Source: a virus
IMG/VR virus record: IMGVR_UViG_3300036759_000183
Coordinates: 1-36,376 of that record
Length of the DNA stretch: 36,376 nucleotides
Reading direction: 5' to 3' (one strand)
Position numbers and translations under genes: made by a program. Under the pieces are notes generated by a model that was given only the letters and a program-made list of their open reading frames with translations, was not told where the DNA came from and did no database searches. This document shows positions 1 through 36,376 of the stretch, in pieces (within the stretch, counting starts at the first letter, position 1; each line of letters begins with the position of its first letter).

Positions 1-5
1 ACGAC

Positions 6-705
6 GTCTCAGTTCTTTTCCCACTGAGCAGGGCTTTGCAACAACTTCCGGCGGCGGGTGCAGTGGGTTTTTGTACGGTCTCAGTTCTTTTCCCACTGAG
101 CAGGGCTTTGCAACCATGCGCGCCATGCTGCCCTGGGAAGTGCAAGAGCGGGTCTCAGTTCTTTTCCCACTGAGCAGGGCTTTGCAACGCGGTATTCCGC
201 GCATGTAACATTGAGGAAATCCTGTCTCAGTTCTTTTCCCACTGAGCAGGGCTTTGCAACGGTCGCATCCCGGAAAACGGATTCTAACCACATGCCATGT
301 CTCAGTTCTTTTCCCACTGAGCAGGGCTTTGCAACGAAACCAGTGCCCGCGCTTGATAGCGGCAATCGTTCGTCTCAGTTCTTTTCCCACTGAGCAGGGC
401 TTTGCAACCAATAAACGAGTCCCGAAATCTTCGGCAGCAGGCATGTCTCAGTTCTTTTCCCACTGAGCAGGGCTTTGCAACGCCAAGCAGGGCTGATTAA
501 GTGTCCTTCGCGCATCCAGTCTCAGTTCTTTTCCCACTGAGCAGGGCTTTGCAACAACTTCAGACGCGCAACCCTCGGTTAACTAGCTATGTGGTCTCAG
601 TTCTTTTCCCACTGAGCAGGGCTTTGCAACCACGCCATCTGCTCTCCAGTAGCCCGGACGCTCTTTGTGTCTCAGTTCTTTTCCCACTGAGCAGGGCTTT
701 GCAAC
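6..705 (-). CRISPR. CRISPR array, leader-proximal part (10 repeats, 9 spacers)
   Basis: Ten identical 37-nt repeats start at 6, 78, 152, 224, 299, 372, 445, 519, 594 and 669; each begins GTCTCAG and ends GGGCTTTGCAAC on the plus strand. Spacers are 35-38 nt and all differ. Read on the minus strand the repeat begins GTTGCAAAGCCC and carries a 6-bp hairpin (CTCAGT / ACTGAG, 9-nt loop) next to its 3' end, the usual layout of a type V crRNA handle. The minus orientation also matches the Cas12 gene, which ends at 768, so the leader end lies near 706-767. The array continues across the window ends into 35596-36376. I saw no spacer that matches the rest of this window, but I could not search exhaustively. 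Confidence 0.98.
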
Positions 706-767
706 TGCTTCATAAACTATACTATCGAAGGCTTTTACCCGTTGCCGATTCACTCGAAACGCGAAGA
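706..767 (-). promoter_or_regulatory. short leader between cas12 stop and first repeat
   Basis: Only 62 bases separate the Cas12 stop codon from the first repeat in the minus direction. The stretch is AT-rich near the array and holds a possible -10 hexamer TATAGT about 10 bases before the repeat, without a convincing -35. The array may be read through from the cas operon, have a weak promoter here, or both. The leader call rests on repeat orientation and on the decayed repeats at the opposite end. Confidence 0.45.
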
Positions 768-2444
768 TCACGCTTTTGCTTCCAATACCGGCCGATCTGC
801 GAACTCACGCAATAAGTTCTGCGCTGCATTGTAGTCCTGATCCCAGACGCTCTGGCACAGGTCGCATCTATGTATCACGGATTCCGCCGCATCCCAGCGT
901 GCCGTATTCCCGCAGACATGGCACCGCTGTGTAGTCAGTCGAGCCTCCCTCTTTTCAATTTGCGTGCCTTCGCGTGCCGCCGTATTCTCTAGCGTCGTTC
1001 GCAGTTCGGAGATCGATGCAATTTGCCGATAGCGTGCTGCTCTCGTTTCAACCGCTTCTTCTTTGGCCTCGGGCTGCGCGTGCTCGGCTACTCGCCGCAG
1101 ATCGAATTCTTCTAAGATAATCCGGTCGTAATGACCCGCTATCTGCGCGGCAAAATTCCGGTAAATATATCGGCGGCGCTTGACGACTTGATCCTGAAGA
1201 TTGGCTGCCCATTGGTACAAATGCATCTGCTTGCGCCTCCAGTTCTCCAGTTCCACGTCCGCAAGGCCTGCCTCCTTCGCTTTCCGCGCCCAGCCATAGA
1301 GCCGTCCCGGTGAACGCCACTGCGCGATCGTTGCGAGTTCCTGCCGCAATTCCTCGGTCGGTACAGCTAGTTCTTCATGCCCAACCCGATCAATCAAATA
1401 TGCCTTTATCTCCTCGAATTTCTTATCGATCGTCGATTGCAGGGTGCGGACTCGTTCAAACTCCCATAACACCGAATGTGACAGTCTCAAGCTGCCATGC
1501 TGGCCCTCCGCGTCGGCCCAATAGGCCACGCGCAATTCTGGTTTCTTTTCGTCGCTTGGAACCAGGCGCCACCCGACGTCAATCGCACACACACGTTCGC
1601 CCGCTTTGGGTTCGACATCGACCAAATCGTTTACGGTAATCAGCAACTTGTATCGCGGGCGCCCGGCCACCACTTCTCGCTTGATCGCGGCTGCACGCAC
1701 GATTCCATCTTCTGGCAGAGGGCGATGCAGGACGACGGGCAAGCGAAACCAAATGGGAGCGCGGCGGAGGCTACCCACGCGTAGGGCGACCTCATGACGT
1801 GCCTTTGGGTTTTTCCGTCCTGTCGCTCGGATCTCTTCCTCACTCAGGGCACGTAGCTGCAAGCGTGTATCCTCGCCGAAGACCTTCTCGACAGGCAGTC
1901 CCGTTTGATAGCGTATGGAAACCTTTCCTTCCCCGCGAAACGCATGAAACCGCAACCCCGTCCGGCTGCGCTGCCGTGCCGTATCGTAGCTTGCCAAAAC
2001 ATCATCGTAATTACACCAATACAACTCTGCCGCATGGGTTGCTTGTTTCATGGCTGTAACGCGCTGTTGGTTTAACTCGGTGAGCTGAGATTTGCGCTCC
2101 GCTACCCGTTCTTTGCGTTTGGCCTTGGCGATGGCGATGGACCCGTTCAATTGCACTTTTGTGGCTGCGATCTCAGTTTTCAGCTCGCTCACGTCCACTT
2201 TGGTGGACCGCGCGGCTTGGCGCTTCTGTTTGATGGCCGTGCGCAAATCTTGCAAGGTTTCGAGGGCTTGGGTCACGGGAGCCTGCTCTTCCGGCTCACT
2301 CAAGAGTTCTGCTGCCTTTTGGCGATGTGTCGTTTCGACCTCAACCAAGGCGTTCCACAGCCGGTTGCGCCGCCGCATTTGTTCCATTGCTTCTGCTTCG
2401 CCAGCGATAGGGCGAAGGCAACCATATTCATAGACGCGTATCAT
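768..2444 (-). CDS. cas12m: compact Cas12 effector, Cas12m-like (type V-M), phage-encoded
   Basis: A 558-residue RNA-guided effector of the TnpB/Cas12 superfamily. The N-terminal half has long charged helices (about 20-140), then LYWCNYDDVL (141-150) and a beta-rich region. The C-terminal half is a split RuvC domain: motif I AIDVGWR (D289), motif II IILEEFDL (E445), a zinc ribbon with C508, C511, C527 and C530, and motif III WDQDYNAAQNLL (D535/D537). From memory, many blocks parallel Mycolicibacterium mucogenicum Cas12m, for example LYW..., the ...GWR motif and QW.SP.R; that protein is similar in size and is reported to bind DNA and silence without cutting. Here the motif I acid is present. 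The start lies 2 bases after the stop of the upstream gene, and the array lies immediately downstream. Family assignment is by eye; the alternative is another small type V-U lineage. Confidence 0.88.
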   Translation of the reverse strand: MIRVYEYGCLRPIAGEAEAMEQMRRRNRLWNALVEVETTHRQKAAELLSEPEEQAPVTQALETLQDLRTAIKQKRQAARSTKVDVSELKTEIAATKVQLNGSIAIAKAKRKERVAERKSQLTELNQQRVTAMKQATHAAELYWCNYDDVLASYDTARQRSRTGLRFHAFRGEGKVSIRYQTGLPVEKVFGEDTRLQLRALSEEEIRATGRKNPKARHEVALRVGSLRRAPIWFRLPVVLHRPLPEDGIVRAAAIKREVVAGRPRYKLLITVNDLVDVEPKAGERVCAIDVGWRLVPSDEKKPELRVAYWADAEGQHGSLRLSHSVLWEFERVRTLQSTIDKKFEEIKAYLIDRVGHEELAVPTEELRQELATIAQWRSPGRLYGWARKAKEAGLADVELENWRRKQMHLYQWAANLQDQVVKRRRYIYRNFAAQIAGHYDRIILEEFDLRRVAEHAQPEAKEEAVETRAARYRQIASISELRTTLENTAAREGTQIEKREARLTTQRCHVCGNTARWDAAESVIHRCDLCQSVWDQDYNAAQNLLREFADRPVLEAKA

Positions 2445-3833: not shown

Positions 3834-4093
3834 TTGTTATCTCCTTCTCCAAGGGGAGAGCGTTTGCTCGCTCTCTCTGTTTATAGATTACAACAGCGCA
3901 GTAGTCATCGCAACTAGGAAAATCTATAGCATTGGTGCAAGCACGGTGTTTCACGCTCGTCCGCTTTCGTGTATGCTGTTGATAATTCAGCCCGGCGAGC
4001 GCACGCCGTAAAACCAATGCGTGTCCTGTAGCGTTTCTACCCCTGTTTCAAAATTCGAAAATCCGGCTGTTTCGTGACGGCGAATATGTCGGC
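3834..4093. promoter_or_regulatory. divergent intergenic region between cas operon and packaging genes
   Basis: About 260 bases separate the minus cas operon from the plus packaging operon, and the start of the first plus gene is unclear. On the minus strand a weak pair TTGCGA, 17 bases, TAATCT lies upstream of the good ribosome site (AAGGAGAT) of the 3833 start. AT-rich stretches such as TTGATAATTCAG near 3978 could serve the plus strand. No strong sigma-70 consensus is visible on either strand. Confidence 0.4.
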
Positions 4094-4414
4094 GTGCGCA
4101 CCCGCTCGACGATTGAGGCTCTCTATGCGCGCGGCCTCGTCACGCTCGAACACAACGCCAAGGGCGCCATCGTGGCCGCTCACGAGCGCCATCTGCGGAA
4201 GCTCGATTCTGTTGACAGAATCCAGCTAGCAGGAAATGGTCACGGTTCGTCCTCAGGTCATCTTGCTCCTACCCGCTATTCCTTCGAAGACACTTCGATC
4301 GAAGGCCGTCCCTGGGACCTGAAGCGGCTGAACGGCAAGCGCAGCGGGCTGCATTACGCCCCACCAGAAGTGCAACCGATCTTTCTGCGCGTGGTGCTGG
4401 AATGCCTGGCGTAA
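4094..4414 (+). CDS. hypothetical protein at the head of the packaging operon
   Basis: A 106-residue protein if the GTG at 4094 is used. The same frame stays open upstream and reads LFRDGEYVGV just before, which looks like real protein, so the true N-terminus may lie further left at a rare start codon. The C-terminal part (YAPPEVQPIFLRVVLECL) looks globular. The stop overlaps the next start. It may be a small packaging-associated protein; no family is recognised. Confidence 0.45.
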   Translation: MRTRSTIEALYARGLVTLEHNAKGAIVAAHERHLRKLDSVDRIQLAGNGHGSSSGHLAPTRYSFEDTSIEGRPWDLKRLNGKRSGLHYAPPEVQPIFLRVVLECLA

Positions 4415-4602
4415 CCATTGACCACGACGTAGGCTTGAAGCTCAAGATCAAATGCCTTGAGGGCACCTGGCGCGTGATTCTGCCGGTGACACACCCGAAC
4501 TGGGTCGACATCGCGCGGATTCCACATGCCAGCTACCGCGAGGCGCTGGAGGCGGCCCGAATGTGGGCGGAGGCGATCGAGCGGAAAGCCCTCTCGGCAT
4601 GA
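4402..4602 (+). CDS. small hypothetical protein before terminase
   Basis: A 66-residue protein. Its ATG overlaps the end of the previous frame by 13 bases and its stop overlaps the small terminase start as ATGA. The sequence alternates hydrophobic and polar residues (LKLKIKCLEGTWRVILPV) and then has an amphipathic helix (YREALEAARMWAEAIE), giving a small alpha/beta fold. Function is unknown; the coupling places it in the packaging operon. Confidence 0.55.
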   Translation: MPGVTIDHDVGLKLKIKCLEGTWRVILPVTHPNWVDIARIPHASYREALEAARMWAEAIERKALSA

Positions 4603-5225
4603 AGCAGAAACGGTCCAAAAAGCTCACCGAAAAGCAAAAATTGTTCGTCGCAGAGTATTTGGTCGATCTGAACGCGACAAAGGCTGCTGTTCGAGCAGGT
4701 TACACAGAAAAGACCGCACGCATTCACAGCTCGAAAATGTTAGCAAATGCTAACATTCAGCAGCTCATTTCCGAGAGCCTCCGCAAACGCACGGACAAGC
4801 TCGAAATCACCTCCGAACGCATCCTTTCCGAACTCGCCTACATGGGCTTTTCGAACATGCTCGACTACATCGGCACAACCGAGTTCGGTGACGCGTATGT
4901 GGATCTCTCCAGCCTGACCCGCGAGCAAGCCAAGGCGATTCAGGAAATCACGGTAGAGGCCTACACGGAAGGACGCGGCGAAGACGCGCGGGAAATCAAA
5001 CGGACCAAGTTCAAGTTGGCGGACAAGCGCGGATCGCTGGAACTCCTGGGTAAGCATCTGAAGCTCTTCACCGACCGGCACGAGCACCACTTGGATCTGG
5101 ATGAACTCTCCGATAATCAGCTCCTCGACCTGCTCGCCCGCCTCGAGGGCCAGAGTCGCCGATTGGCTCTACTCCGAGATTCTGGCGCGGCGCGCACGGC
5201 AGGCGGAGCGGAAGCGCTACAGTGA
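4599..5225 (+). CDS. terS: terminase small subunit
   Basis: A 208-residue DNA-recognition subunit of the packaging motor. The N-terminus LTEKQKLFVAEYLVDLNATK followed by AAVRAGYTEKTA is the classic Terminase_2 signature: a helix-turn-helix that binds the pac or cos site, then oligomerisation helices. The start at 4599 was chosen because it overlaps the preceding stop as ATGA and begins directly before the conserved domain. It precedes the large subunit, as usual. Confidence 0.93.
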   Translation: MKQKRSKKLTEKQKLFVAEYLVDLNATKAAVRAGYTEKTARIHSSKMLANANIQQLISESLRKRTDKLEITSERILSELAYMGFSNMLDYIGTTEFGDAYVDLSSLTREQAKAIQEITVEAYTEGRGEDAREIKRTKFKLADKRGSLELLGKHLKLFTDRHEHHLDLDELSDNQLLDLLARLEGQSRRLALLRDSGAARTAGGAEALQ

Positions 5226-6612
5226 CTCGCTCGCCCGCTATGTGGAAGCTGCCTGGCCGCTGCTCGAACCCGTCACGCCGCTCATCGCCGGCCGCCATCT
5301 CGACGCGCTATGCGAATATCTGACCGCCGTCACACTGGGCCAAATCCGTCGGCTGATCATCAACATCATGCCGCGGGTCGGCAAGTCGAGCGCGGTTTCC
5401 GTGCTGTGGCCCACCTGGGAGTGGGCGCGCGACCAGGCCACCTCCCGTTGGATGTTCGCCACCTATGCGGCCGATTTGAGCGTCCGGGATTCGGTGCGGC
5501 GCAGAAACGTCATTCAATCGGAATGGTTCCGCGGGTATTGGGGCGTGGATGTCCAGCTTTCGGCCGACGTGAATTTGAAGGACGAGTATGTCTCGACACA
5601 TGCCGGCTCGATGTTCTCCACCTGGATCGGGGGCGGTACCGGCCGCGGCGGCAAGCGCCTGGTCATCGACGATCCGCATTCCCCGAAAAAAGCCTTGTCT
5701 GATGCCGAACGCGAAACGGCGGTCACCTACATTCGCAACGTGCTGATTTCGAGACTCGATAATCCGGCGACCGATTCGATCGTCATGATCATGCAGCGGC
5801 TGCATGAGAACGACGCCACGGGCGAGCTGCTGGCGGACGGCGGCTGGACGCATCTCGACCTGCAAGCCGAGGCGGAGGACCGCACCATCATTTCGATGCC
5901 GCTGTCCGGTGTCGATTGGATCCGGGAAAAAGGGGATCTGCTCGAGCCGGTCCGCTTTCCGAAGGAAGTTCTCGGGAATCTGCAGCGTGAAATGGGCTCG
6001 GCTGCGTATTCCGGCCAATACCAGCAACGGCCGGCGCCGAAGTCGGGCATCCTGTTCCAGCCGGGCTGGTGGCAGTTTTATAAAACCGCTCCCGCCTTCG
6101 ACTTTGTTGTTCTCAGCGTCGATTGCGCGTTTAAAGACTACAAAACGAGTGACTACGTCTCCCTCGAGGTGATTGGCTTTGTGGGCCCCAAAGCTTACCT
6201 CATCGAGAAGAAAACTGAACATCTCGGCTACTCGGCGACCAAAGCGGCGATCCGCTCGATACGAGCGGACGATAAACGCATCTCACACATTCTGATCGAG
6301 GATGCAGCGAACGGGCCGGCCGTGATCGAAGAACTGTCACGCGAGATCCCGGGCATCATTGCGCTGAAGCCGGAGGGCGGCAAAGTGGCGCGTGCGCAGG
6401 CCGCGACGGCCGATGTGGAAGCCGGCAATGTTTATTTGCCGGAGAACAAAGCCTGGACTCATCAATGGGTCACGCTTTTCAGTAAGTTCCCGAACGTGAA
6501 GAACGACGACGACGTGGACGCCTTCAGCCAGGCCATGAACTGGCGCCGCAAACGGACGCTGCCGAAAGTCTACCGCTTGTATAGCAAGAGCCCCAGCGAA
6601 GAAACCGAATGA
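5101..6612 (+). CDS. terL: terminase large subunit (ATPase and nuclease)
   Basis: A 503-residue packaging motor. The ATPase domain has a Walker A-like MPRVGKSS (90-97) and Walker B VIDDPHS (188-194). The C-terminal RNase H-like nuclease shows VLSVDCAF (D341), ILIEDAANGP (E400, D401) and DDDVDAFSQA (470-473). It cuts concatemeric DNA and pumps it through the portal. The ATG at 5101 overlaps terS by 125 bases; a GTG at 5242 is the alternative, but the region between them (RQAERKRYSDSLARYVEAAW) matches the usual start of this family, so 5101 is preferred. Confidence 0.95.
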   Translation: MNSPIISSSTCSPASRARVADWLYSEILARRARQAERKRYSDSLARYVEAAWPLLEPVTPLIAGRHLDALCEYLTAVTLGQIRRLIINIMPRVGKSSAVSVLWPTWEWARDQATSRWMFATYAADLSVRDSVRRRNVIQSEWFRGYWGVDVQLSADVNLKDEYVSTHAGSMFSTWIGGGTGRGGKRLVIDDPHSPKKALSDAERETAVTYIRNVLISRLDNPATDSIVMIMQRLHENDATGELLADGGWTHLDLQAEAEDRTIISMPLSGVDWIREKGDLLEPVRFPKEVLGNLQREMGSAAYSGQYQQRPAPKSGILFQPGWWQFYKTAPAFDFVVLSVDCAFKDYKTSDYVSLEVIGFVGPKAYLIEKKTEHLGYSATKAAIRSIRADDKRISHILIEDAANGPAVIEELSREIPGIIALKPEGGKVARAQAATADVEAGNVYLPENKAWTHQWVTLFSKFPNVKNDDDVDAFSQAMNWRRKRTLPKVYRLYSKSPSEETE

Positions 6613-7940
6613 AGCAGGGCCGTCCCATCACCTGGAAGGATCGCGCCAAATTTGCTTGGCGGATCCTAACGAAATCCTCTGCGATCGCGCCTTATATTGC
6701 GCGCATGTATGGCAACCGGGCGGTCTGGACGGGAGGCGACTACACTTCACTCGTACAAGCGGGTTTTGTGCGCTGCGGTGATGTCTATTCCTGCATCACC
6801 ACCATCCTGATTGCCGGCCGGCAATTGCGGATCGGTCTCTATCAGGGAACCGAAGACGACAACGAGGAGCTGACCGGTTCAAATTTTCCATTGGCGCAAT
6901 TGATGCGGCGGCCGAACCCCGCGCAATCGCTGGGGGACCTGCTCGAATACACGGTGGGCTATCTGCTCTGCGGCGGCAATTGTTTCCTCGAAGCCGTACG
7001 TCCCTTCACTAGCCGGCCGCCGAATGAACTCTACACGCATCGGCCCGATCTCATCCAGGTTTACCTGACAAACGATGTCGCGACTTCGTCCACACTCATC
7101 GATCACTATGGTTTGATTGGAACGCAGATTCGCTGGTCTCCCGAAGACATGGGCCACGCGAAGCTATTCAATCCGCTTGAGCCCTGGTACGGCATGTCGC
7201 CGCTGCGGGCCGCCGCCTATGGGATTGACACGATCAATGAATCGAAACACGTCCAAAAATCTCTTTTACAAAACTCGGGACGCCCGCCGGGCATTCTGCA
7301 AGCCAAGGCGGATCTGACGCCCGAGCAGCAGGATCAGCTCAAACGCGACCTGCGCGATGAGTATATGGGGAGCGCCGCCGCCGGCACGCCCATGGTGGTG
7401 AGTGGAGATTTTTCCTGGCTGGGCCAGGCGTTTTCGCCCGAGCAGATGCAGGCGCTCGAACTGCGGGGCCTCGAAAAGCGTGACATCGCCGCTATCTTGC
7501 ATGTACCGCCCGAGCTGGTCGGCGATACGCAAAACAAGACCTACAGCAATTACCAAGAGGCGCGGAAGGGTCTCTATACCGAAGCGGTCCTGCCGCTGTG
7601 GGATCTCGTGTGCGGATTCCTGACGCTGTGGCTCTGCCCGCAATTTGGAGAGAATCTTTTCCTGGCGGTCGATCGGGATTCGGTCGACGCCCTGCAGGAA
7701 GATCGCGAAAAGACCTGGAACAGGGTCTTCGGAGCCGTCGATCGCGGTCTCATCGATCGGGATGAAGGACGGCTTGAACTCGGCTATGCAAAGCGCACAG
7801 AGAAAATTGCCGGCCAATTGACCGTAGGCGCGGGGACGGTCTTGCTCGAGGAACTGGCGCTGCCGCCGGACCAGCCGCCGATGGAAGGCGTACCGCCGCC
7901 CCAGTTGTTGAACGGGAAACCGGTCGCGGCCGTGCAATGA
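6609..7940 (+). CDS. portal protein, HK97 family
   Basis: A 443-residue portal forming the dodecameric DNA channel at one capsid vertex. HK97-type signatures include VRCGDVYSCITTI, GNCFLEAVRP, LEPWYGMSPLRAAAYGI, QNSGRPPGILQ and KRDIAAILHVPPELVGD with KTYSNYQEARKGLY. The start overlaps the terL stop (ATGA). The C-terminus is proline-rich (LPPDQPPMEGVPPPQ). Length is normal for the family. Confidence 0.95.
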   Translation: MKQGRPITWKDRAKFAWRILTKSSAIAPYIARMYGNRAVWTGGDYTSLVQAGFVRCGDVYSCITTILIAGRQLRIGLYQGTEDDNEELTGSNFPLAQLMRRPNPAQSLGDLLEYTVGYLLCGGNCFLEAVRPFTSRPPNELYTHRPDLIQVYLTNDVATSSTLIDHYGLIGTQIRWSPEDMGHAKLFNPLEPWYGMSPLRAAAYGIDTINESKHVQKSLLQNSGRPPGILQAKADLTPEQQDQLKRDLRDEYMGSAAAGTPMVVSGDFSWLGQAFSPEQMQALELRGLEKRDIAAILHVPPELVGDTQNKTYSNYQEARKGLYTEAVLPLWDLVCGFLTLWLCPQFGENLFLAVDRDSVDALQEDREKTWNRVFGAVDRGLIDRDEGRLELGYAKRTEKIAGQLTVGAGTVLLEELALPPDQPPMEGVPPPQLLNGKPVAAVQ

Positions 7941-8134
7941 TGCTGGTGACAGACTGGAGCGCCATCGCCGCCGCGGCCTACGAAGCCTACGGTCAAGTGA
8001 CCGATCACAAGAACTATCAGCAATTGCCGATGCCCGAGTGGGAACAGTTGCCGCCGCGGATCCAGGAAGCCTGGCAGGAAGCGGTGAAGGAAGCCGTACG
8101 TCTGGTCCAGGAAGCGGAGCCGAAGAATGACTAG
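7937..8134 (+). CDS. small conserved phage protein between portal and gpF
   Basis: A 65-residue protein (MMLVTDWSAIAAAAYEAYG... LPPRIQEAWQEAVKEAV). Small proteins with this pattern (AAYEAYG, W..LP..IQEAW) are common in phages and have no known role. The start overlaps the portal stop, and the stop overlaps the next start. An alternative ATG lies one codon downstream. Confidence 0.7.
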   Translation: MMLVTDWSAIAAAAYEAYGQVTDHKNYQQLPMPEWEQLPPRIQEAWQEAVKEAVRLVQEAEPKND

Positions 8135-8891
8135 CCTGCGTACGGGTCGGGCCCGGGGCCGCTACTGGCAACAGATCGATCGCCGGCGTAAGGTCTGGGT
8201 ACACCGCGGAGCTGCCAAAGCCGCTGAGCGCTTTGGGCAGGAAGGCCAGTATGTAACGTATGTTTTTTATCGGGCGGGCGTCGAGGCAGCCTTGACGGCG
8301 GTCACAGCACATGCGCCGCAATGGCTCGACTATTACGCCAAGCTCTATCACGGTGTCGCGGGCGAGTTCGGCGAACACATTCTGGGTCAGATCGAGGCCG
8401 CAAAGTCACACTCGAAAAGCGTCAGTGACCTGTTTCGCTCGGCAGTAAATAGCTGGCTGGTCCGGCACGGAGCGCGGCGCGTGAACGATTTGACAGCTAC
8501 CAGCCGGGAGGTACTGGCGAACGATCTGGCGCAGGGAACCGCGGCGAACGAAAGCATCCCGCAGCTCGCCGGCCGGATTCAGGGCCGCTACAACGATTGG
8601 TCCCAAACGCGGGCGCGCACGATTGCCCGCACGGAAGTGATCGCGGCTTCGAATCTGGGTAGCTATGAAGCCGCGCGGGCCTCCGGGATCCCGCTCGATA
8701 AGGTTTGGGTGGCGACCAACGACGATCGGACACGGCCGGCGCATGCGGCCGCCGACGGCCAGAAACAACATCTGGATGAATTCTTTCTCGTCGAGGGCGA
8801 GCAGTTGCTGTGGCCGGGGGATAGTTCACATGGAGCGACCCCCGACAATACGATCAACTGCCGGTGTACGGTGGGCTATCAGGCGGCTTGA
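8127..8891 (+). CDS. minor head protein, Mu gpF-like (SPP1 gp7-like)
   Basis: A 254-residue head morphogenesis protein. The C-terminal Mu gpF domain is clear: RARTIARTEVIAASN, DKVWVATNDDRTRPAHAAADGQ and the closing PDNTINCRCTVGY motif. Proteins of this family sit inside the capsid near the portal and are encoded right after it, as here. The N-terminal 130 residues are less conserved. The start overlaps the preceding frame by 8 bases. Confidence 0.92.
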   Translation: MTSLRTGRARGRYWQQIDRRRKVWVHRGAAKAAERFGQEGQYVTYVFYRAGVEAALTAVTAHAPQWLDYYAKLYHGVAGEFGEHILGQIEAAKSHSKSVSDLFRSAVNSWLVRHGARRVNDLTATSREVLANDLAQGTAANESIPQLAGRIQGRYNDWSQTRARTIARTEVIAASNLGSYEAARASGIPLDKVWVATNDDRTRPAHAAADGQKQHLDEFFLVEGEQLLWPGDSSHGATPDNTINCRCTVGYQAA

Positions 8892-8916
8892 CGTAATTAA
8901 TAATTATCGGAAGCGG

Positions 8917-23252: not shown

Positions 23253-23468
23253 ATGCCGAACCTGCACGAAAGCGTGGCCTACTGCCAGGGTCTCTGCGAC
23301 ACAATCCTGGCCATCGATTGGCTGGAAGATTGTTCCGCGTGCGGCGCGCGCGTCTGTGGGAATTGTTCCCGCGCCTGGCGCAATCGTCTCCTGTGCCCCA
23401 CATGCTACCAGGCCGAACTCCGGGCGGACTTCACGGCCAAGCCGCGGGAACGCTGGGAGACCACATGA
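23253..23468 (+). CDS. zinc-ribbon small protein
   Basis: A 71-residue protein starting immediately after the preceding stop. CSACGARVCGNC and CPTC form a classic four-pair zinc ribbon, and the N-terminal helix (ESVAYCQGLCDTILAIDWLE) may dimerise. Its C-terminus (ERWETT) lies in a 23-bp tandem duplication that also contains the next start codon. Confidence 0.65.
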   Translation: MPNLHESVAYCQGLCDTILAIDWLEDCSACGARVCGNCSRAWRNRLLCPTCYQAELRADFTAKPRERWETT

Positions 23469-23494
23469 CCGAACGCTGGGAGACCACATGACCG
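23449..23494 (+). repeat. 23-bp tandem duplication at a gene junction
   Basis: The unit GAACGCTGGGAGACCACATG plus ACC occurs twice in a row. Each copy carries an ATG overlapping a stop (ATGA). The first ATG would give only MTERWETT before stopping; the second starts the exonuclease. Confidence 0.8.
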
Positions 23495-24114
23495 CCCCTG
23501 CCACAGGCAAGCCGCGTCCCACGCTCGAGCTGCCGGCGCACATCTATCGCCTGGACGGGGAGGTCATTCCGGGCGTGACGGCGACCTTACGCGCAGCGGG
23601 CGTGATCGACTACTCTATGATTCCGCAGGAGGTCCTGCAGGCCGCCGCCCATCGCGGTACCGCCGTGCATCAGGCCATGCATTTGTATGCCAAAGGCACG
23701 CTCGATCCGGAATCGATCGATCCGGCGATTGCGGGCTACGTTGCCGCCGGCATCCGGTTTCACGAGGAGTCGCGGCTCACGATCGCCCACGCCGAGCAGA
23801 TGGTGTTTCACGAACAGTACCGCTATGCCGGCATGTTCGATCTGGATTGCGTGATTGAAGACGAACTTTTACTGTGTGATTACAAGACGGGAATAGTGCT
23901 CGACGGCCACCGTGCCCAGCTCGCCGCCTATCTGAATTGCCGGCCGAAACCACGCCGCTGGCGCCGGGCTGCCGTGCAACTGAATGAGGACGGCTCCTAT
24001 CGAGTGCATGAATTCCCCCGCGCTGATTTCGATCGCGACCTGGATTTGTTCCTGTGGGCGCTTGCTCATCAACAAACATCTCTGCCGGGCCAGAATGGAG
24101 GACCAATACGATGA
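23488..24114 (+). CDS. PD-(D/E)XK exonuclease (RecB/Cas4-like superfamily)
   Basis: A 208-residue nuclease. Core motifs: RGTAVHQAM with H61, HEQYRYAGMFDLD with the GxxD aspartate D118, LLLCDYKTG with D131 and K133, and the Q144 of AQLAAYL. Together these are the RecB-type PD-(D/E)XK signature. With the putative annealing protein at 25255 it would form a phage two-component recombination system. It lacks neighbouring cas1/cas2, so a Cas4 role is not implied. The start was chosen after the tandem duplication. Confidence 0.85.
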   Translation: MTAPATGKPRPTLELPAHIYRLDGEVIPGVTATLRAAGVIDYSMIPQEVLQAAAHRGTAVHQAMHLYAKGTLDPESIDPAIAGYVAAGIRFHEESRLTIAHAEQMVFHEQYRYAGMFDLDCVIEDELLLCDYKTGIVLDGHRAQLAAYLNCRPKPRRWRRAAVQLNEDGSYRVHEFPRADFDRDLDLFLWALAHQQTSLPGQNGGPIR

Positions 24115-24572
24115 CACTCGTTTGTAATTATTGCGGCCGCGACTATGAAGTGCCCGCTTGTCACTTTCACCGAAGGCTCCATTGTTCGCGGGCTTGTTTT
24201 GCTGCGAATACTGTAGCTAATGGTTCGCGAAAAGGAGCCCGCAATGGCCGGTGGAAAGAAGGCAGAATTATTCGAGACGATGGATATGTTCTGTTGTATG
24301 CTCCTGCTCACCCGCGCGCCGTTAACGGTTACGTGCTCGAACACATTTTGATCGCTGAACGCTGGCTAGGCAAGGCGCTTCCTCCTCACGCAGTCATCCA
24401 CCACAGCAACGGAAATAGATCCGATAATCGGCCAGAAAACTTAGTGATTTGTCCCGATCAGGCTGCTCACGCCAGATTGCATGGAAACCGGCGACACCCG
24501 ACCACTGGGCGGTTTCTGGCGGCCAGCCAAAGAAACATCCCCACCGAATTAGGAGTAAAAAGAACCGCATGA
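24111..24572 (+). CDS. HNH endonuclease with zinc-finger N-terminus
   Basis: A 153-residue protein. An N-terminal ribbon (CNYCGRDYEVPACHFHRRLHC) precedes the HNH_3-type core GYVLEHILIAERWLGKALPP, VIHHSNGNRSDNRPENLVIC with the HH and N..N residues. It resembles free-standing homing endonucleases. It is inserted between the exonuclease and the coiled-coil gene with ATGA overlaps at both ends and is more AT-rich than its neighbours, suggesting acquisition. Confidence 0.88.
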   Translation: MTLVCNYCGRDYEVPACHFHRRLHCSRACFAANTVANGSRKGARNGRWKEGRIIRDDGYVLLYAPAHPRAVNGYVLEHILIAERWLGKALPPHAVIHHSNGNRSDNRPENLVICPDQAAHARLHGNRRHPTTGRFLAASQRNIPTELGVKRTA

Positions 24573-25258
24573 GCGCACTCGTCACCACATCCGAACAACA
24601 ATTAACCCACCAGACGGCTTACTGGATCGAGATCGCACAACATACCGAGATCATCGACCAGCCGAGCTACGAGATGGCGGCCGCCCATCTGCGGGCGATT
24701 AAAGGCCTACAGGCCGAAGCGGATCAGACCTTTGATCCGATCATCCAGAAGGCCTATGCCGCACATCGGGAAGCGCTCGCGCAGAAGAAGCGCATCTGCG
24801 AACCGCTCACGCAGGCTGAAGCCTTGCTGAAGCGCAATATGGGCGCTTACGTTCAGGAGCAGGAACGGCTGCGACGGGAAGAAGAGCGCCGGCTGCGGGA
24901 AGAAGCCGAGCGCCTGGCGGCGGAAGAACGCGAACGCGAGATTGAAGCGGCGGAATCTCTCGGCGTCTCAGCAGAAGAGATCGCGGTGATCGCCGAAGCG
25001 CCGCTGCGCCGGCCGCCGGTTGTGGTGGCTGCGCCGCCGAAAGTTGCAGGCATCTCTTCGCGGGAGATCTGGAAGGCCGAAGTGACTAACTTGCAGTTAC
25101 TGGTGAAATATGTAGCGGCGCATCCGGAACTTTCGAACTTACTGAGTCCGAACATGCCCGCGATCAACGCGCTGGCTCGCAGCCTGCGTTCGGCCCTTCA
25201 CGTGCCGGGAATCAAGGTATATCCGGAAGCGAATATCGCGAGTAGGAGAAGTTCATGA
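24569..25258 (+). CDS. coiled-coil protein of the recombination operon
   Basis: A 229-residue protein. A long charged helix (about 75-135; QEQERLRREEERRLREEAER) predicts a coiled coil. The C-terminal region (SREIWKAEVTNLQLLVKYVA ... PGIKVYPEANIASRRSS) is globular. Proteins of this build usually sit beside phage single-strand annealing proteins. It overlaps both neighbours as ATGA, so a shared role in recombination is likely. Confidence 0.7.
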   Translation: MSALVTTSEQQLTHQTAYWIEIAQHTEIIDQPSYEMAAAHLRAIKGLQAEADQTFDPIIQKAYAAHREALAQKKRICEPLTQAEALLKRNMGAYVQEQERLRREEERRLREEAERLAAEEREREIEAAESLGVSAEEIAVIAEAPLRRPPVVVAAPPKVAGISSREIWKAEVTNLQLLVKYVAAHPELSNLLSPNMPAINALARSLRSALHVPGIKVYPEANIASRRSS

Positions 25259-26079
25259 GTGAATCTGCTGTTTTAACCCCCACGATCGTCGAGCCCGATG
25301 ACGGCTTTACGCTGCGGTTGCAGCGCAAGCCAGAAGTGATCGTAGCGGAAGCCCGGCTCTGTGCGGATGCGTTAATCGCCGCTGTCAAACGCAACGGCTG
25401 GGTGCAAAAGTTCGGGGGCGGAGACCATCTCTTCTTCGAGGCCTGGTCGTTTCTGGCCAGCATGTACCGGGTTACCCCGCGCACCTGCGAAACGCGCTTG
25501 GTTCAGATCGGTGAGGTGACAGGCTACGAGGCCTTTGCCGAAGCGTTCCATGTTCCGAGCGGCATCGTGATCGGCAAAGCGGATTCCATGTGCCTCGATG
25601 ACGAAGAGAACTGGGATATGCGGCCGGTGTACGAATACGATGAGCAATTGAAAAAGCGTGTCCAGGTGGGAGAACGGCCCGTGCCGCTCTTCCAACTCCG
25701 CTCGATGGCGCAGACGCGGGCGCAGGCCAAAGCGCTCAAAGGTCCGTTCTCCTGGATCGTGGCGATGGCGGGCTACGCCCCGACTCCGGCGGAAGAAATG
25801 GGCGGCCGGCGTACACCGTCCGGCGAAGGACAGCCGATTCAACAACCGCGCGAGAAGACGCAGCCGGCGGCTGAAAACGGCAATGGCGGTGCGAAGACCA
25901 TCAGCGGCAAGCAGGCCTCGCGCATCTGGGCGATCGGCTTTTCGCAAGGCGTGGACAAAAAGATCATCGGCCAGATCCTGCGCGCGCATGGCTTCGAGCG
26001 GGCCGAAGATGTCACGACGGATAAGTACGAAGAGATCATCGCGGCGGTCGAGAATGCGGGGGCTGGGGCGGCACAGTAG
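25255..26079 (+). CDS. putative ssDNA-annealing / recombination protein
   Basis: A 274-residue protein. Its core has QKFGGGDHLFFEAWSFLASM and PLFQLRSMAQTRAQAKALKG, then AMAGYAPTPAEEM. The middle motif (S.AQTRA.AKAL) resembles the conserved helix of Rad52/Erf/Mgm101-type annealing proteins, and the exonuclease three genes upstream fits this role. The C-terminal 60 residues (SGKQASRIWAIGFSQGVDKK...) look like a small helical DNA-binding domain. I cannot assign a precise family. Confidence 0.6.
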   Translation: MSESAVLTPTIVEPDDGFTLRLQRKPEVIVAEARLCADALIAAVKRNGWVQKFGGGDHLFFEAWSFLASMYRVTPRTCETRLVQIGEVTGYEAFAEAFHVPSGIVIGKADSMCLDDEENWDMRPVYEYDEQLKKRVQVGERPVPLFQLRSMAQTRAQAKALKGPFSWIVAMAGYAPTPAEEMGGRRTPSGEGQPIQQPREKTQPAAENGNGGAKTISGKQASRIWAIGFSQGVDKKIIGQILRAHGFERAEDVTTDKYEEIIAAVENAGAGAAQ

Positions 26080-28893: not shown

Positions 28894-29114
28894 ACTGGGG
28901 ATTTAGTACTAGGTCTCAAGCCCTCTAGGACCCAGTACCCTCCTTCCCTGCCATAAGCCCGTATTTCATTGAAATGACAACCGCTTTCCAAACAAAAACG
29001 CTTTGCAATGTGCTTCGTAATGCAAGTGTAATTACGTGGTTCTCGAAACAAGGCAAGGGCTTGTGAGACAAAAAACTCTTGCATCCAGAGGTCAATCGGA
29101 GCTAAATTCGCCAT
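28857..29114 (-). CDS. hypothetical protein upstream of RHH gene
   Basis: An 85-residue minus-strand frame: MANLAPIDLWMQEFFVSQAL, then NYTCITKHIAKRFCLESGCH and YGREGGYWVLEGLRPSTKSP. The amino-acid composition looks like real protein. The last codons overlap the operator repeats. The ATG lacks a good ribosome site. No family is recognised; a small helical DNA-binding protein is possible. Confidence 0.4.
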   Translation of the reverse strand: MANLAPIDLWMQEFFVSQALALFREPRNYTCITKHIAKRFCLESGCHFNEIRAYGREGGYWVLEGLRPSTKSPVVACFNATMLHA

Positions 29115-29706: not shown

Positions 29707-30002
29707 TGCCGCCCAAGCCTGGAACTCCCAAGCGCCCACATGGCGCCGGATCGTTAGTTCGCCGTCCAAACAACCGATGGAAGCTGCATTATCAGAAGGA
29801 AAACGGCGAATACCACACCGAGACGATCACAGCCGAAACGCAAGAGCATGCCGAACGCGAACTTTTTCTCCGTACACTTCCACGGCGGCGCCGCTTGCTT
29901 GCGCGCGGCCGCGTCGATACTCAACAGCAATGGCAGGAATTGCTGCGCGAGCTGATGCACACCGCCGAGGCAGCGCTCGCCGATGCGGAGAAGAATGTAT
30001 GA
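29706..30002 (+). CDS. stand-alone integrase arm-binding-like protein
   Basis: A 98-residue basic protein. GAGSLVRRPNNRWKLHYQKE, TITAETQEHAERELFL parallels the N-terminal domain of the integrase just downstream (GDGTVRETKTGWQCEYRRQ, YPAKNREELL), a three-strand arm-type DNA-binding domain. It overlaps the integrase start as ATGA. It may compete for or help bind the arm sites around attP. The relation is by eye. Confidence 0.6.
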   Translation: MPPKPGTPKRPHGAGSLVRRPNNRWKLHYQKENGEYHTETITAETQEHAERELFLRTLPRRRRLLARGRVDTQQQWQELLRELMHTAEAALADAEKNV

Positions 30003-31186
30003 GCAGGCCCAAGCGCTCGCACGGCGACGGCACGGTCCGCGAAACCAAAACCGGCTGGCAGTGCGAATACCGGCGACAATGCCAAACCTTTTCCAAGAGG
30101 GACTATCCCGCTAAGAATCGCGAGGAGCTTTTACGAAACCGCGCCTTCCGCAAAACATACCAGCAATGGCGCGACGAACTGGACGCGAAGGCGGAGCGCG
30201 GTCCAGTTGTTACCATGAGCCAGCTCTTTGACAAATACCTGGCGCAGCTTCTAATCAACAAGCGCAGTGTATACATCGAGCAATTGCGCGTGGAGAAATA
30301 CCTCCGTCCGCGCCTCGGGCATTTGGACGGCTCGAAATTCAACTTGCAGCATGTGGGCGATTACGTTATGGGCCGCAAGCAGGAAAAGACCCGGACCGGC
30401 GAATACACGAGCAATGGAACGATCAACCGGGAACTGTCGATTATCACCAGTTCACTACGCCTGCTGTGGCCGGAGCCGCGCCTTCTGTTTATCAAAAAGT
30501 TGGACGAGTCCGACCGCATCCGGCAGGGCATCGTCGGCATGGAAGATTATCAACTTCTCCTGCGCGAACTGGAGGACTACCAAAAGCCGGTCTGGTGTTT
30601 CAGTTATTACACTGGCGTCCGCCGGGGCCAGCTACTCAAGCTGCGACGGGAATGGACCAAGGACTGGGAGACGACGGGGATCCTTGAAGTACCGGGCTGG
30701 TTTCAAGGCGAGCGTATGACGAAGAATGGTAAACCGCATCCTGTGCCGATCTATTCCCAGGCGATGCGGGAAATGCTGAAATGGGCGCTCCAGATTGGCG
30801 ACCCGGCTTGTCCCTATCTGTTCCAGCGCGGAGGAAAGCGCATCAGCAAATCTACATTTAGCCACGCCTTTAAACGTGTCGCCCGGCGCGTCGGCCGCGA
30901 CTGGATAGTATTCCATGATTTACGCCGCACCGCCGTAACCAATATGGATGAGGCCGGAATTCCGCCTAAAGAAGCTATGGCCGTCGCAGGCATGCTCACC
31001 ATGAGCATCTATGAGCGTTACAACATTCGTACCTCTGCCACGGCCAGAAAGAGCGTCCGGGCTACTGGAGAGCAGATGGCGCCGTGGCATGAAAAAAATT
31101 TTTCGGGCGCGGATTACGAGAAGATTACGAGACAGAATCCGGCGCCACTCGCGCCAGGATTGGACGATGGCACCAAACCTAACTAA
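29999..31186 (+). CDS. int: tyrosine recombinase (phage integrase)
   Basis: A 395-residue integrase. Arm-binding domain about 8-55, core-binding about 70-165, catalytic about 175-345. Catalytic residues: R208 in TGVRRGQ, a lysine in the beta hairpin near 242-245, H306 and R309 in FHDLRR, and Y341 in YERYNI. The second conserved His (usually AGH) is Met332 here (VAGMLTMS). The start overlaps the preceding stop. It integrates the genome at attP (31200-31265) into a tRNA-Leu gene. The 3' end of the gene contains a paired arm site. Confidence 0.93.
   Translation: MSRPKRSHGDGTVRETKTGWQCEYRRQCQTFSKRDYPAKNREELLRNRAFRKTYQQWRDELDAKAERGPVVTMSQLFDKYLAQLLINKRSVYIEQLRVEKYLRPRLGHLDGSKFNLQHVGDYVMGRKQEKTRTGEYTSNGTINRELSIITSSLRLLWPEPRLLFIKKLDESDRIRQGIVGMEDYQLLLRELEDYQKPVWCFSYYTGVRRGQLLKLRREWTKDWETTGILEVPGWFQGERMTKNGKPHPVPIYSQAMREMLKWALQIGDPACPYLFQRGGKRISKSTFSHAFKRVARRVGRDWIVFHDLRRTAVTNMDEAGIPPKEAMAVAGMLTMSIYERYNIRTSATARKSVRATGEQMAPWHEKNFSGADYEKITRQNPAPLAPGLDDGTKPN
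31111..31133. repeat. attP arm site, left pair
   Basis: Two tandem copies of GATTACGAGA with an 11-base period lie inside the 3' end of int. The same 23-base block recurs exactly at 31349-31371, on the other side of the tRNA-derived core. Spacing and symmetry suit integrase arm-type sites. Confidence 0.75.
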
Positions 31187-35460: not shown

Positions 35461-35648
35461 CGACGCCCGCTCTGCGCACTGCGTTCGTCCACTGCCGGCG
35501 CGTGAACGGCTCGATCGGCTCGTGTCCGGCGGGCGACGGACTGAACAGGGACTTGCAACCGATACTGGATTCAGAACTTGAGAGTTCGAGATCTTGTCTC
35601 AGTTGTTCTCCCACTGAGCGGGGCTTTGCAACCTTTCGTTCTCATTGA
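35457..35648 (+). CDS. possible small gene running into the CRISPR trailer
   Basis: A 63-codon frame whose ATG overlaps the preceding stop (ATGA). It reads MTTPALRTAFVHCRRVNGSI, then PAGDGLNRDLQPILDSELES, and then continues into the first, degenerate repeat. The first 40 residues may be a real C-terminally replaced protein; the rest is repeat-encoded. It could equally be non-coding trailer. Confidence 0.3.
   Translation: MTTPALRTAFVHCRRVNGSIGSCPAGDGLNRDLQPILDSELESSRSCLSCSPTERGFATFRSH
35523..35559 (-). repeat. eroded CRISPR repeat remnant beyond the array
   Basis: ACTGAACAGGGACTTGCAAC (35540-35559) matches 17 of 20 bases of the repeat end. It is exactly 36 bases, one spacer length, from the degenerate repeat at 35596. 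The other half is no longer recognisable. This fits gradual decay at the trailer end. Confidence 0.5.
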
Positions 35649-36376
35649 ACTCCTCGCAGCGATTTTGGTCTCAGTTCTTTTCCCACTGAGCAGGGCTTTG
35701 CAACCAATTTGGATCAGGGTGGATTTCTGTTTACTGCTCAGTCTCAGTTCTTTTCCCACTGAGCAGGGCTTTGCAACCGTGGACAAGCGCAAACAGCTTT
35801 GGTTCATCGGGAGTCTCAGTTCTTTTCCCACTGAGCAGGGCTTTGCAACCCACTTCAAAGACATTGTGCACGAGAATTAGCAGTGTCTCAGTTCTTTTCC
35901 CACTGAGCAGGGCTTTGCAACCATGCGCGCCAAGCATCCCCGCATCTCGCATGTGCTGTCTCAGTTCTTTTCCCACTGAGCAGGGCTTTGCAACAGTGGC
36001 GTTTACCGCCGTGGGCGAATCGAGGATCAATGTCTCAGTTCTTTTCCCACTGAGCAGGGCTTTGCAACACGACGCGAGATGATCAAACTCGGTCGTTGAA
36101 ACGACGTCTCAGTTCTTTTCCCACTGAGCAGGGCTTTGCAACAACTTCCGGCGGCGGGTGCAGTGGGTTTTTGTACGGTCTCAGTTCTTTTCCCACTGAG
36201 CAGGGCTTTGCAACCGTGGACAAGCGCAAACAGCTTTGGTTCATCGGGAGTCTCAGTTCTTTTCCCACTGAGCAGGGCTTTGCAACGAAACCAGTGCCCG
36301 CGCTTGATAGCGGCAATCGTTCGTCTCAGTTCTTTTCCCACTGAGCAGGGCTTTGCAACCAATAAACGAGTCCCGA
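35596..36376 (-). CRISPR. CRISPR array, trailer part, continuing across the window end
   Basis: Eleven repeats start at 35596 (degenerate), 35668, 35741, 35813, 35885, 35958, 36032, 36106, 36178, 36250 and 36323. The 35596 copy differs at several positions (AGTTGTTCTCCCAC..., GAGCGGGG), as expected for the oldest, trailer-end repeat. Spacers are 35-37 nt. The spacer at 35778-35812 is repeated exactly at 36215-36249. Spacers at 36143, 36287 and 36360 equal those at 43, 336 and 409, so this block joins the left array in a circular molecule. Together there are about 16 distinct spacers. Confidence 0.98.

Follow-up and report, generated by a model that had tools for sequence, protein, structure and literature searches.

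The window, i.e. the whole stretch of 36,376 bp that was analysed, is the complete IMG/VR record IMGVR_UViG_3300036759_000183. It carries genes for the small and large terminase subunits, portal, capsid, tape measure and a tyrosine integrase (29777..31186, plus strand), the last denoting a temperate lifestyle, and this gene content identifies it as a tailed temperate phage. The long tape measure gene suggests a siphophage-like morphology. No tRNA genes were found in the window. Phage exonuclease-like genes are present within 23356-26079 and adjoin a gene without assigned function (25255-26079); a recombination module there could promote repeat-repeat exchange in the CRISPR array described below.

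Four further IMG/VR records from other samples, hereafter called G001-G004, are near-identical copies of the window phage, and searching IMG/VR by protein and by repeat recovered the identical four. In the 34.9 kb of non-array sequence 2-3 SNPs separate them from the window, and at position 29009 the base in the window differs from that in all four. The first part of G004 (IMGVR_UViG_3300036835_000554) is an 89 % divergent allele of window 24560-25548, which meets the common sequence at window 25549 and points either to recombination with, or to assembly joining to, a sister phage of its sample.

The minus-strand gene cas12m (768..2444) encodes a protein of 558 amino acids with the RuvC motifs AIDVGWR, LEEF and DQDYNAA, a zinc ribbon and a Pfam TNB domain. 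Its residues 2-548 match PADLOC Cas12u1 (E 1.3e-111) and residues 6-546 match the Cas12m chain 23vw_A in PDB (E 8e-103), alignments which identify the effector as homologous to Cas12m over its full length. Searches with the PF01867 and PF09827 profiles, for which the controls were positive, found no cas1 or cas2 in the window. On these sequence features we class the locus as a phage-borne type V-M (Cas12m, formerly V-U1) system without Cas1/Cas2. The RuvC site has D-E-D residues, in contrast to the inactive H-D-D of MmCas12m2. The Cas12m proteins tested in one study, D-E-D variants included, are reported to bind dsDNA without cleavage (PMC11013384).

The array lies directly downstream of cas12m in the same orientation, as in V-M systems, which likewise lack Cas1/Cas2, and wraps across the ends of the record. 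Its 37-nt repeat, GTCTCAGTTCTTTTCCCACTGAGCAGGGCTTTGCAAC (GTTGCAAAGCCCTGCTCAGTGGGAAAAGAACTGAGAC in the cas12m direction), is present in 21 copies in the window, 20 of them exact and one (35596-35632) with three changes. The spacers are labelled S01-S09 in order from 43 to 668 and S10-S16 from 35633 to 36105. The cas12m-proximal part (6..705, minus strand) contains S01-S09 and ten exact repeats, and the distal part (35596..36214, minus strand) the degenerate terminal repeat, S10-S16 and S01. Since the degenerate repeat is the one farthest from cas12m, the cas12m side is likely to be the leader end, and the stretch that separates the cas12m stop codon from the last repeat (706..767, minus strand) is presumed, from its position and from comparison with other V-M loci, to be the leader. 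The first 11 nt of S02 (115-151) and S14 (35922-35957) are identical, CATGCGCGCCA, a similarity above chance among 16 spacers.

The repeat is of the V-M type, with the end ...CTCAG...CTGAGAC that is also kept in the V-M-like loci of the Allomeiothermus plasmid pMESIL02 and of two phages, Virus Rctr197k (KX853510) and the 90-kb viral contig IMGVR_UViG_3300007351_000277; all three loci also share the gene order of the window. The predicted repeat stem CTCAGT/ACTGAG has an energy of -7.3 kcal/mol, no better than that of shuffled sequences, so the putative hairpin rests on conservation and not on energy. For type V-M a T- or C-rich 5′ PAM is expected; the 5′ flanks of two candidate protospacers only could be compared with it, and these end in ...GATC and ...GGCC. 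In both Rctr197k and the 90-kb contig a virus-borne cas12m-like gene is followed directly by the array; the window Cas12m protein is 30 % identical to that of the former and 42 % to that of the latter, and both genomes are larger. The cas12m-like gene of Rctr197k (fragment 3947-7363 of KX853510) is annotated merely as "similar to transposase", beside an annotated CRISPR array. A search of 84,980 bacterial and archaeal species, with one genome for each, did not find the exact repeat and hence revealed no host array that carries it, and a search of the same genome collection with peptide patterns, which detect close relatives only, found no relatives of the Cas12m.

The spacer order S10-S16 followed by S01-S07 is common to the window, G001, G003 and G004, and in the last three records the array is a single unbroken block. 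G002 is broken at the leader end; its exact repeats are equally numerous, and junction counts gave the same spacer junctions.

The initial annotation had drawn attention to matches between the two ends of the window, and these are confirmed. Bases 1-114 are identical to 36101-36214, and the match extends by one base (115 = 36215) before A at 116 faces G at 36216; the second match, 336-425 to 36287-36376, is part of a longer exact match of 127 nt between 299-425 and 36250-36376. At 115 and 127 nt the end matches are far above chance. The right-end copy of window 1-115 (36101..36215) contains the tail of S16, a repeat, S01, a repeat and the first base of the next spacer, whereas 36250..36376 contains a repeat, S05, a repeat and the first 17 nt of S06, where the record ends. 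Between the matching segments the left end does hold three spacers, S02, S03 and S04 with their repeats (115..335, minus strand; here called form A), and these are replaced at the right end by the single spacer previously noted there, a second copy of S12 (36215..36249, minus strand; form B), identical to 35778-35812 and giving the order S01-S12-S05. The segment 36101..36215 is thus the branch point between the two forms and 36250..36376 the point at which form B merges back into form A, the base before the 127-nt re-entry at 299 being A (S12) at the tail and T (S04) at the head.

The length of 127 nt is not specific to the window. The end of each of the five records is repeated elsewhere in that record over exactly 127 nt and no more, starting at position 1 in G001, 2 in G002, 1 in G003, 1034 in G004 and 299 in the window. 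A repeated suffix of this length is what a de Bruijn graph with k = 127 would leave, the assembler being presumably metaSPAdes at that k, as is usual at JGI. A physical terminal repeat at the ends of the window was considered and ruled out, the shared 127-nt suffix occurring at unrelated positions in every record. G001 and G003 have exact 127-nt end repeats with different breakpoints, and both close to a unit of 35,950 bp. Their closing at different breakpoints supports a circular or circularly permuted genome, and the circular molecule that had been claimed from the window ends is upheld in that sense. The window, G002 and G004 do not close because in each of them a variant joins at most 127 nt from the break. 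In G004 the re-entry at 1034 is at the edge of the 89 % divergent allele. In G002, re-entering at base 2, the tail has A (S07) as the preceding base and the head has T, which is the last base of S09; from this one base, which is weak evidence, the G002 sample may have a mixed leader end. The deposited window record can be read literally as a linear molecule with an array segment at either end, but G001-G004 contradict this: the array is one unbroken block in G001, G003 and G004, and the contigs of all four break at other places. A linear molecule of that kind is highly improbable and was rejected.

The likely explanation of the whole structure is that the window traces a single path in the assembly graph of a temperate phage, circular or permuted, whose V-M array exists in two or more forms. 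This path would begin immediately ahead of S02-S03-S04, the form A segment, run once round the genome and through form B, and end 127 nt into the shared sequence where the two forms have merged again. The fit is imperfect at the left end, which shares 115 nt, rather than 127, with the branch; this indicates that the S16-S01-S02 connection was broken in the window assembly. The order S01-S02-S03-S04-S05 was found in all four other records, so form A is well supported by its presence in five assemblies, and neither the S01|S12 nor the S12|S05 junction occurs in the assemblies of G001-G004.

These missing junctions leave room for form B to be an assembly or library chimera, produced for example by PCR template switching between the 37-bp repeats, in a sample that contained only S02-S03-S04. 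Repeats of this kind favour chimeras, and S12 is already present at its ordinary place. Set against this, a chimera would have required a switch on each side of a single spacer, occurring frequently enough to persist in the graph. The unit repeat-S12-repeat is also, at 109 nt, shorter than k, so that, if k = 127, it should have been bridged by individual reads, 128 nt or longer, that also contained bases of S01 and S05. The expectation that reads spanned the S12 unit leads us to regard form B as probably a real minor variant in the window sample, and the chimera as rather unlikely. Recombination between repeats, which the initial annotation had invoked, would be a sufficient route to form B: a duplication of the block S12...S01 via the repeats could be followed by deletion of everything between the second S12 and S05 (S13...S04). 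It counts against the graph-path explanation that two recombination events are needed for form B, not one. For host arrays, recombination between repeats, or their misalignment during replication, has been discussed as a source of duplicated and deleted spacers (PMC8047081).

The earlier proposal that the population holds two array forms therefore stands in part. Array variation is supported, but the S12 form is seen in the window record and in no other, and the firmer difference lies chiefly elsewhere, at the cas12m end. Two repeat-spacer units, S08 (556-593) and S09 (631-668), together exactly 150 bp (519..668, minus strand), are present in the window and missing from the assembled arrays of G001-G004. 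The window circle of 36,100 bp exceeds the 35,950-bp unit by the same 150 bp. This leader-end variation among samples is, from the compared assemblies, a stronger result than forms A and B, and suggests that the array gains or loses spacers at the cas12m-proximal (leader) end, separately from form B.

The position of the two units favours their gain in the window lineage. It is exactly the two endmost units that differ, and the cas12m-proximal end has the most uniform repeats, both here and in the arrays of IMGVR_UViG_3300007351_000277 and Rctr197k, as expected of the site of new insertions. The opposite direction, in which recombination of the repeat at 519 with that at 669 removed both units from the other lineages, appears somewhat less probable; a single deletion between identical repeats would suffice for it, and since the window also differs from G001-G004 at 29009 the lineages cannot be polarised. 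As the phage has no recognisable Cas1/Cas2, spacer acquisition would depend on an adaptation module of the host acting in trans.

Two spacers had candidate targets. S14 (35922..35957, minus strand) matches the terminase large-subunit gene of IMGVR_UViG_3300037153_000711 at 33 of 36 positions, a match with a chance expectation of about 1e-9; the best match of S14 in the window's own genome is 22/36. The target contig is from a sister phage, with DNA 89 % identical to window 4400-8912, and its metagenome is shared with G002. S09 has a near-match in the phage's own integrase gene (31046..31083, plus strand), with 35 of 38 positions identical, 34 of them contiguous. The mismatch at guide position 2 suggests that S09 originated from a relative, or that self-targeting is weak; self-regulation of the integrase and a spacer taken from a relative are thus both possible. 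Apart from these, no protospacers were found in the sets searched: all spacers gave no matches, or non-significant ones only, against 50,697 phage records and 72,556 plasmids, the 20-nt core of S08 was not found in IMG/VR, and there was no match above background in the relatives L029, L059, L064 and L065 or in the records G006-G008.

The predicted and most likely function of the array is to direct Cas12m against co-resident sister phages, which it would bind and silence. Viral arrays described in connection with inter-virus competition similarly contain a spacer against a close relative of the same environment, but have one or two spacers and rely on host Cas, whereas the phage described here has its own effector and 16 spacers. 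We tentatively propose that the V-M array of this small phage gains leader-end spacers via a borrowed host adaptation module and is reshuffled by repeat recombination, and that Cas12m, maybe without cutting, silences the terminase and integrase genes of sister phages that rival it for a shared host and possibly tunes the phage's own integrase via S09.

The leader-end difference and duplicated spacer seen here, and the proposed internal block deletion, are also known from host arrays (PMC8047081), unlike which the present array is on a phage without Cas1/Cas2. V-M systems have been reported on plasmids and prophages (PMC11656645). The present locus differs from the known V-M systems in that the carrier is a small temperate phage of 36 kb and that the spacer content varies among near-identical genomes.

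To our knowledge, most reports of CRISPR systems that phages carry without adaptation genes concern single genomes. With near-identical phages (2-3 SNPs per 34.9 kb) that differ by two whole leader-end spacers, change in such an array becomes visible, and the place at which a contig of a circular genome fails to close can serve to locate strain variation. Together with the spacer match to a sister phage, this makes it possible to test from existing reads whether the array of a V-M phage system turns over and what part this plays in competition between phages.
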